The notes below the pieces were generated by a model that saw only the letters and a list, made by a program, of their open reading frames with translations, was not told the DNA's origin and made no database searches. The position numbers and the translations under genes are program-made. DNA of 64,000 nt from Segnochrobactrum spirostomi. Its GTDB lineage: Bacteria > Pseudomonadota > Alphaproteobacteria > Rhizobiales > Segnochrobactraceae. Below are positions 4,947 to 9,718 of this stretch, piece by piece (positions within the stretch are counted from its first letter, which is position 1; each line of letters opens with the position of its first letter). Location of the stretch: positions 2,900,501-2,964,500 of the forward strand of contig NZ_VWNA01000001.1 of NCBI RefSeq assembly GCF_009600605.1, given 5' to 3'.

Positions 4947-5102
4947 ATGATGAGTCTTCCCTTCTTCGCCCAGGCGATCGCCCTCGGGCTGGTCTTCGCC
5001 GGGCGCCGTGGCCCGGCGCTCGCCGTCTGGGCGCTGTCGATCGTGGTGCTGCTCGTGCTGTTCAAGCTGCACGCCACCGATTCGCTCGCGATCGACCTGT
5101 GA
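4947..5102 (+). CDS. Small membrane protein (51 aa) upstream of dsbB, DUF5993-like
   Basis: A short reading frame of 51 codons begins at ATG 4947, after a strong AAGGAGG at 4930-4936, and ends at TGA 5100-5102, 7 bases before dsbB. The product has two hydrophobic stretches, about residues 4-18 (FFAQAIALGLVFAG) and 24-38 (LAVWALSIVVLLVLF), joined by a basic GRRG turn, and ends in HATDSLAIDL. Size, two-helix layout, the HATD motif and position match the family recalled as DUF5993, small membrane proteins often found directly before dsbB. Its function is unknown; a helper role in quinone-linked disulfide formation is an inference from linkage. The strong ribosome-binding site suggests it leads the operon. 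Confidence 0.75.
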   Translation: MMSLPFFAQAIALGLVFAGRRGPALAVWALSIVVLLVLFKLHATDSLAIDL

Positions 5103-5109
5103 GGCCGTC

Positions 5110-5682
5110 ATGAGTTCGGTGCAGTCTCGCCTTCTCAATGCGCTCGGCCTTCTCGCCCTGTCGTTCGTGCTCCTCTCCGCCTTCTACGATCAGTTCGAAG
5201 GCGGCGACCTGCCGTGCCCCTTGTGCATCCTCCAGCGCGCCGGGTTCGCTGGGGCGATGGTCGGGCTCGCGCTCAATGTCCGCTTCGGGCCGAAGCCGAG
5301 CCATTATGCCGTGGTGATCCTGTCGGCGCTCGCCGGGTCGCTGATCTCGGTGCGCCAGATCCTGCTCCACGTGGCTCCGGGCACGGGCTCTTATGGCGCG
5401 GAACTGCTCGGCCTGCATTTCTATACGTGGGCTTTGATCGTCTATTTCCTCATCGTTGCCGGCAGCGCGGTGATGCTGATGTCCGATCGCCAGTTCGAGC
5501 CCCAGCCGGGCGGCGCGGCCGGCCGCACGGCGGTCCGCGGGCTCGCGTTGGTCGCGCTCGCCGTCTCGCTCGTCATGGTGTTCGGTAACGGCGTTTCGAC
5601 CGTCGTCGAGTGCGAAGGCGGCCTCTGCCCAGACAATCCGACCGGCTACATGATGCTCGGGACGCAGCCGCCCGCGCCGTGA
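5110..5682 (+). CDS. dsbB: Disulfide bond formation protein B (DsbB)
   Basis: This inner-membrane quinone reductase would reoxidise a periplasmic DsbA. It has 190 residues. The start at ATG 5110 comes 7 bases after the small upstream gene. Hydrophobic segments lie at about 9-26, 42-58, 66-86, 104-124 and 143-162. The first periplasmic loop carries the redox pair C36-P-L-C39. The second loop (about 87-105) has no cysteine, unlike E. coli DsbB (C104/C130). Instead, a fifth hydrophobic segment leads to a C-terminal tail with C168 and C173 (ECEGGLC), which would be periplasmic in this topology. No dsbA gene is nearby. The family call is firm; the five-helix topology is predicted by eye only. Confidence 0.9.
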   Translation: MSSVQSRLLNALGLLALSFVLLSAFYDQFEGGDLPCPLCILQRAGFAGAMVGLALNVRFGPKPSHYAVVILSALAGSLISVRQILLHVAPGTGSYGAELLGLHFYTWALIVYFLIVAGSAVMLMSDRQFEPQPGGAAGRTAVRGLALVALAVSLVMVFGNGVSTVVECEGGLCPDNPTGYMMLGTQPPAP

Positions 5683-8945: not shown

Positions 8946-9476
8946 TCAGGCGGCCAGCGTCGCGGCCTCGAGGGCGATCGCGGCCGACTGGATGATCGCG
9001 GCGTAGCGCACCGCCGTCTGGATCTGCTCGACCGGCATGCCGGCCTTGAGGAGCACCGCCTCGTGGGCGTCGATGCACATGCCGCAGCCGTTGATCGCCG
9101 ACACCGCGAGCGACCAGAGCTCGAAGTCGGTCTTGTCGACGCCGGGGTTGGCGATGATGTTCATCCGCAGCTTCGCCGGCAGCGTGCCATATTGCTTGTT
9201 CGAGGCGAGGTGGACGAAGCGATAATAGACGTTGTTCATGCCCATGATGGTGGCCGCGGCCTCGGCGGCCGTGAACGCCTCTGGCGTCAGATGCGGCTTC
9301 GCCTCCGCCGCCAGGGCGGCGCGGACCTCGGGATTGCGCGTCGCGATCCCGCAGGCGACGAACAGGCCGTATTTCTGCTGCGCGGTGAGCGTCTCGTCCG
9401 AGCCGATGGTCGAGAGATTGAGCCGCACGTCCTTGGCGAAGGCCGGCAGTTGGTCCTTGAGGGCATCGATCGACAT
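8946..9476 (-). CDS. ahpD: Alkyl hydroperoxidase AhpD (carboxymuconolactone decarboxylase family)
   Basis: AhpD is a cytoplasmic peroxidase and disulfide reductase that can reduce AhpC. The product has 176 residues from ATG 9474-9476, preceded by GGAG 6 bases upstream. The active centre is C131-G-M-C134 with H138 (CGMCIDAHE), the CxxC...H pattern of AhpD. A nearby glutamate in DFELW fits the proton-relay position. It lies 242 bases downstream of ahpC in the same direction, and the spacer contains a chain of hairpins. In Hyphomicrobiales and Mycobacterium AhpD replaces AhpF as partner of AhpC; no ahpF is present here, which fits that scheme. OxyR control is likely. Confidence 0.92.
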
Positions 9477-9565
9477 GGCAGTCTCCCGGCCGCCGACGCG
9501 AACGGGCGCAGCCGGCAAGCGATCATGAGATTTTTCAGGAAGCCGGGATGACCCGGCCGCACGCA

Positions 9566-9718
9566 GCGGCCGACCCTCGAGGAGGGGTCGGCCGCCCGCC
9601 AGGGGATTGGGGGGATCGGCGGGCGGCCTGAGTGGGGCTGTTGGGGGCAACCCCACCCATTCTGGGTAACTCAGATATAAAGGCGCACCCAGACCGCTTC
9701 AAGGCCGACTTTGTCGGC
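9566..9718 (-). other. Five consecutive hairpins between ahpC and ahpD
   Basis: Reading along the transcript from ahpC to ahpD, perfect inverted repeats occur at 9718-9704 (6-bp stem), 9693-9661 (7-bp stem, TCTGGGT/ACCCAGA), 9656-9632 (6-bp stem), 9627-9591 (10-bp stem, GCCGCCCGCC/GGCGGGCGGC) and 9595-9566 (11-bp stem). The last two share bases 9591-9595 and cannot both form fully. None is followed by a T tract, so they look like RNA-stability or attenuation elements rather than simple terminators. The role is inferred. Confidence 0.6.

Follow-up and report, generated by a model that had tools for sequence, protein, structure and literature searches.

Results

A DsbB-family protein with a cysteine pair beyond a predicted fifth helix

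We describe a DsbB-family protein of Segnochrobactrum spirostomi that probably represents a second, specialised kind of DsbB-type oxidase, coupled to quinone, built on five helices and using a disulfide in its C-terminal tail in place of the cysteine pair of the second periplasmic loop. Its gene lies in a stretch of 64,000 nucleotides that was analysed as a whole (the window). In the textbook scheme, DsbB has four helices and one cysteine pair in each periplasmic loop, and the pair of loop 2 is the route to DsbA. The protein encoded here (P0001) has just four cysteines, C36, C39, C168 and C173, and its chain ends 17 residues past C173. The features of the gene are as follows.

5110..5682, + strand: DsbB-family gene (P0001, 190 aa; five predicted helices), from ORF, Pfam, AlphaFold, hydropathy and conservation
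5215..5226, + strand: CPLC codons, C36-C39, periplasmic loop 1, read in the sequence and retained in 75/75 homologues
5368..5421, + strand: second periplasmic loop, cysteine-free, about residues 87-104, HVAPGTGSYGAELLGLHF; cysteine in columns 87-105 in 0/75
5530..5610, + strand: predicted fifth helix, residues 141-167, from the AlphaFold model, with a hydropathy peak at 141-159
5611..5628, + strand: tail pair C168-C173, CEGGLC (CX4C), read in the sequence and retained in 74/75

P0001 belongs to the DsbB family in the broad sense, scoring above the Pfam cut-off against PF02600 (E 2.2e-12, 48 bits, cut-off 22.1, residues 7-90) and carrying the loop-1 CXXC followed by an arginine. The PF02600 match stops before loop 2, and at its cut-off Pfam gave no match to P0001 past residue 90. 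The arginine, R43, is presumably the counterpart of the quinone-contacting R48 of E. coli DsbB, judging by its spacing.

The initial annotation, which had been made from the sequence alone, pointed to the CPLC pair, to a second loop free of cysteine, to a fifth hydrophobic segment and to the two tail cysteines. All four observations stand in the sequence, in the homologues described below and, for the fifth segment, in two structural models.

A predicted fifth helix would place the tail in the periplasm

Hydropathy peaks in P0001 fall at residues 8-26, 37-55, 68-86, 106-124 and 141-159. An AlphaFold2 model built from 33 sequences (pLDDT 81, pTM 0.77) has helices at 3-31, 37-59, 63-88, 104-125 and 141-167, and is of low confidence in the tail (pLDDT 55-63). 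The Neopusillimonas homologue (L040), modelled from 37 sequences, likewise gave five helices (pLDDT 87, pTM 0.87), with pLDDT 93-96 for helix 5 and 76-81 for the tail. The five-helix DsbB proposed earlier is thus upheld by structure prediction in both proteins.

For both models, the top VIA-align match was E. coli DsbB: chain 2zuq_A for P0001 (Z 12.9, rmsd 2.2, 119 residues) and again DsbB for the Neopusillimonas protein (Z 13.5, rmsd 2.4, 118 residues). A Z of about 13 is a level at which helical bundles can match by chance, and the repeated first place of DsbB agrees with the sequence match; these alignments span residue 1 to about 132, that is, helices 1-4, and barely probe helix 5 and the tail. 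No VKOR chain was among the structural matches listed, which excludes nothing. A viral structure library gave no match at E <= 0.001.

The distribution of charge suggests the orientation. Per segment, lysine plus arginine averaged 1.09 in the N-terminus, 1.70 in the loop between helices 2 and 3 and 2.61 in the loop between helices 4 and 5, against 0.06 in loop 1 and 0.03 in loop 2. The tail is net acidic (mean K+R 1.18, D+E 3.06). Because of these positive-inside counts and the number of helices, a topology with the N-terminus inside and the C-terminus outside is the consistent reading, and the tail is predicted to be periplasmic, as the initial annotation had expected if helix 5 was real. A four-helix plan with a cytoplasmic C-terminus does not fit P0001, as judged from the predicted helices, hydropathy and charge.

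The tail pair is conserved and the loop-2 pair is absent

We aligned 75 sequences (70 distinct), comprising the window and loci L004-L021, L035-L077, L098-L102 and L131-L138. C36/C39 were present in 75/75 and C168/C173 in 74/75, in a locus set that favours tail-bearing genes because the search peptides included the tail stretch DNPTGYMM; the profile search of 398 pseudomonadote genomes, described below, imposes no tail requirement. The loop-2 cysteine pair by which an ordinary four-helix DsbB is recognised was found in none (columns 87-105, 0/75), and the next commonest cysteine column held 19/75. The homologue alignment therefore came out as first proposed, with the tail pair conserved and the loop-2 pair missing. 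The tail follows the motif [ST]xxEC-G-x-G-x-C-x-D-[ND]-P-xx-Y, and the loop-2 region carries a conserved motif of its own, PGD-x-GYGS...GLHFYTWA. R43 is invariant, and R82, Q83, G96, H103, Y105 and W107 are invariant or nearly so. To judge from the aligned sequences, the cysteine layout is far beyond chance.

The sole exception among the 75 is an actinobacterial protein from Nocardiopsis (L077, 2468-3022), in which both tail cysteines are missing. It keeps the CPLC, the loop-2 motif, the D-D-P-x-x-Y end of the tail and the upstream DUF5993 gene, and by its sequence it is a natural variant without tail cysteines. Together with a DsbI-type protein lacking the tail pair (L022, see below), it indicates that this pair is not indispensable in every five-helix protein.

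Both proteins bear on the main rival to a redox role for the tail, namely a DsbI-like enzyme that oxidises its partner through CPLC alone, while the tail disulfide plays a structural or regulatory part, pinning the tail or sensing redox state. DsbI itself has five helices (PMC4460558) and a CXXC with no second pair, which is also true of L022, and the Nocardiopsis protein has lost its tail cysteines and kept the remainder. Set against this, both tail cysteines stand in 74 of the 75 sequences within a strongly conserved motif, no sequence retains the loop-2 pair, and the second pair is essential in ordinary DsbB (PMC3839904). We regard a purely structural or regulatory tail bond as unlikely, although it deserves serious weight, and we retain the relocated redox pair as our working model.

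A DUF5993 gene accompanies every tail-pair DsbB read

The strongest clue to the tail-pair DsbB class is a small gene immediately upstream.

4947..5102, + strand: DUF5993 (PF19455) gene, 51 aa, two hydrophobic segments by eye, from the PF19455 match

This gene was absent from the initial annotation, and it is the constant companion of the class; the list of open reading frames had a minimum of 60 aa and so does not show it. The ORF scores above the Pfam cut-off (E 3.7e-14, 53 bits, cut-off 27), and a PF19455 search of the whole genome returned a match at window 4950-5099. By Pfam's own naming the function of the family is unknown. Between the DUF5993 stop codon and the start of DsbB lie 7 bp, and a GAGG resembling a Shine-Dalgarno sequence (5101-5104) overlaps the stop, which suggests translational coupling of the two genes. 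In annotated relatives the corresponding gap is 9 bp (Salmonella), 13 bp (Serratia) and 11 bp (Pandoraea).

A DUF5993-type profile (A3) found a match upstream of 75/75 members and 0/32 controls, the profile having been built from 16 sequences of loci later tested, L021 and L077 included. The controls were 31 ordinary DsbB loci and the DsbI locus L022; two more, L106 and L122, both from genome G292, were dropped because they offered no anchor. PF19455 itself recognised the upstream ORF of L077 (E 1.2e-9), and gave the one of L021 an E of 0.011, under the cut-off.

The same linkage emerged from a search of 398 pseudomonadote genomes, where up to 8 enzyme and 16 DUF5993 candidates were scored per genome, so that misses are possible. 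Among the candidates scored, PF19455 was found in 16/398 genomes; these were also the 16 genomes with the full-length enzyme, and the two genes adjoined in each. The 16 full-length matches reached 233-261 bits among these candidates, followed by G371, the genome of L021, at 115 bits with a QC-X4-C tail, by the DsbI genome G292 at 78 bits, and by the remainder at 56 bits or less, confined to helices 1-3. G371 holds a divergent two-gene pair, whose small ORF is the one that fell under the Pfam cut-off. Of the papers searched, a single one names DUF5993, and we found no mention of it paired with DsbB.

Among the strongly copper-responsive genes tabled for Erwinia amylovora, with spy and rprA, is a DUF5993 gene that goes up in copper shock (PMC12542790). 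This finding favours another reading, in which a metal such as copper would be bound or sensed by the tail pair together with DUF5993, the protein serving chiefly in envelope stress and not in recycling DsbA. However, the CPLC and the arginine of the quinone-coupled core are retained in all members read. Copper also mis-oxidises thiols, so induction by copper would suit an oxidase too. We consider metal binding improbable as the main function, and continue with an oxidase as the preferred reading.

Tail-pair enzymes form a separate, patchily distributed clade

A scan of genome contigs yielded 43 loci, in Azorhizobium, Bosea, Bradyrhizobium, Bartonella, Neopusillimonas, Pollutimonas, Microbulbifer, Photorhabdus, one Nocardiopsis and others. 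Tail-pair DsbB was present in 3/3 genomes searched of the source genome's family, its own included, and in 21 plasmid records, from Serratia, Salmonella, Pantoea, Legionella, Pandoraea and Vibrio. It was found in 8/178 genomes drawn evenly from the family of G040, and its distribution is therefore patchy. Phages gave no match to tail-pair DsbB, and E. coli genomes gave none with the Salmonella DNA query at blastn sensitivity.

In a tree of 60 rows, 28 tail-bearing rows together with L021, L077 and the DsbI protein L022 separated from 29 ordinary DsbB proteins with support of 100/99; the long branches of L022, L077 and L021 leave their exact positions unsure. A tree of helices 1-3, from which both the loop-2 and the tail cysteine sites are excluded, gave the same split (SH-aLRT 100). 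The tail-pair clade covers alpha-, beta- and gammaproteobacteria. Proteins with the loop-2 pair and without the tail pair, which the initial annotation had named as evidence against its reading, do occur among the homologues, but they are ordinary DsbB paralogues confined to a clade of their own.

PF02600 was searched for second copies in 20 genomes, the 16 with DUF5993 plus G371, G292, G001 and G002. An additional match reaching profile position 146-147 was present in 20/20. Where the loop cysteines were read, an additional copy with the loop-2 pair was present in 19/19, all 16 DUF5993 genomes among these; the additional copies of G292 (L106, L122) fall outside this reading, the pattern having missed them. 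In the genomes checked, the tail enzyme therefore adds to the housekeeping DsbB and does not replace it.

A second copy alongside an ordinary DsbB is also what would be expected if P0001 were an ordinary DsbB in decay, with its second pair lost and its tail cysteines accidental. The members nevertheless form a single alpha-, beta- and gammaproteobacterial clade, in which motifs are invariant and linkage to the partner gene is strict. Given the conservation of the cysteines over 75 homologues, we reject chance or decay as extremely improbable.

An all-against-all BLAST of the ORFs of 40 loci showed no DsbA gene as a recurring neighbour across distant genera. The only ORFs recurring at that distance were DsbB itself and out-of-frame readings; DUF5993 is too short for this comparison and was assessed by the separate upstream profile. 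Flanks are common to close relatives only, Salmonella and Serratia sharing a DMT transporter gene. In the S. spirostomi genome, DsbA candidates comprise five matches to PF01323 and three to PF13462, none within the window. Elsewhere in the window, an ORF at 8946-9656 (- strand) has a C-terminal part that by eye resembles an AhpD-type alkylhydroperoxidase, with a CGMC.

The pair in Salmonella

In Salmonella, the DUF5993-DsbB pair has a DMT transporter gene on one side and a gene of the pagK family on the other. On a plasmid record of serovar India (L098, 3699-5528), the DMT transporter, DUF5993 and the tail DsbB are consecutive, near the pagK-family gene, and the transporter is probably PagO. 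A related DMT transporter likewise adjoins the pair in Serratia (L099). From synteny and COG class, the Salmonella tail DsbB is probably Typhimurium STM1864, whose annotation is inner membrane protein and nothing more. STM1864 is grouped with virulence-coregulated genes in one study (PMC2639726). The Dsb proteins listed for Salmonella in another are DsbA/DsbB, DsbL/DsbI and SrgA (PMC5744062); if the mapping to STM1864 is true, a DsbB homologue of this well-studied pathogen is missing from that list.

Discussion

Proposed mechanism

In our model, helices 1-4 would form the usual core, in which CPLC, at the boundary of membrane and periplasm, and R43 would pass electrons to ubiquinone. The pair C168-C173, on a short acidic periplasmic tail past helix 5, would replace the loop-2 pair that attacks DsbA in ordinary DsbB. 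Electrons would then run from a reduced DsbA-like partner to C168/C173, on to C36/C39 and to ubiquinone; we propose this path because the core that faces quinone is preserved and the pair that would face the partner now lies on a tail predicted on the same membrane face. In the DsbB of Wolbachia and of the E. coli type, the pair in loop 1 works toward quinone and the second one contacts DsbA, and neither can be dispensed with (PMC3839904); a relocated pair is therefore the economical reading. The 51-aa DUF5993 protein may serve as a dedicated subunit in the membrane or as a stabiliser, comparable to Dba for Campylobacter DsbI. The pair would act as an accessory oxidase alongside the housekeeping DsbA/DsbB and, in enterobacteria, would probably be active during envelope stress. 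What the data show is the sequence and its conservation, the predicted helices, the two-gene linkage and the phylogenetic split from ordinary DsbB; the redox role of the tail, its partner, the part played by DUF5993 and the physiological setting are proposals built on these.

A wider reading is tentative, and we would put its chances at slightly below even: a distinct class of quinone-coupled oxidase, with a tail shuttle disulfide and an obligate DUF5993 subunit, that spread horizontally among alpha-, beta- and gammaproteobacteria, has an offshoot in actinobacteria and supplements the housekeeping DsbB in every genome checked. Its enterobacterial members, probably including Salmonella STM1864, would serve in a response to envelope stress that is linked to Rcs or to copper. 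If this is true, the class and DsbI together would make up a branch of the DsbB superfamily, with five helices and two genes, that is missing from textbooks. A pair moved to a tail past an extra helix offers a natural test of the required role and place of the second pair, and the strict DUF5993 linkage ties a Pfam family whose function is unknown to a definite partner. This looks like a widespread, unstudied DsbB class. What is new here is a putative DsbB-superfamily oxidase with a relocated second pair, a fifth helix and an obligate small partner; the literature searched, which was thin on subscription journals, held no prior description of a tail-pair DsbB, so an earlier report is possible.

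Comparison with known systems

The nearest described kin of P0001 is Campylobacter DsbI. DsbI of Campylobacter and Helicobacter is reported to have five helices and a CXXC without a second cysteine pair, and the Campylobacter protein, encoded by dba-dsbI, to carry its CXXC and an arginine in loop 1 and to end in a periplasmic beta-propeller (PMC4460558). A second source reports that translation of dba is required for synthesis of DsbI from the native operon, and that DsbI is degraded in E. coli when Dba is missing (PMC3167755).

A DsbI with its beta-propeller also occurs in the pseudomonadote genome G292 (L022, 1468-2898; NF050065 E 3.6e-84, under the 800-bit cut-off), where it was possibly acquired by transfer. 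Its upstream ORF is Dba-like (NF050061 E 2e-5, 24.4 bits, cut-off 90). G292 is also the genome with the additional DsbB copies mentioned above. Homology between DUF5993 and Dba was unsupported when the 16 DUF5993-type sequences (A3) were compared by hhalign with this one Dba-like ORF, the alignment having a probability of 0.7% (E 0.083). Dba and DUF5993 are alike in position and size, and this comparison does not support common ancestry.

P0001 thus shares the helix plan and the two-gene layout of DsbI, and it has neither the beta-propeller nor a score near the curated threshold (NF050065, 31 bits, cut-off 800; E 7.6e-8, residues 31-160). As in ordinary E. coli DsbB (PF02600), helices 1-4, the CPLC, the arginine that follows and the fold (Z 12.9) are present; unlike that four-helix enzyme with its loop-2 pair, P0001 has a short loop 2 free of cysteine and a pair behind helix 5. 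As in DsbI (PMC4460558, PMC3167755), there are five helices, a loop-1 CXXC with an arginine, no loop-2 pair and a C-terminus that is periplasmic, by prediction in P0001. A gene for a tiny protein lies upstream, at a gap of 11 bp in the C. jejuni dba-dsbI operon and 7 bp here. In contrast to DsbI, which ends in a beta-propeller and is without a second pair, P0001 ends in a short CX4C tail.
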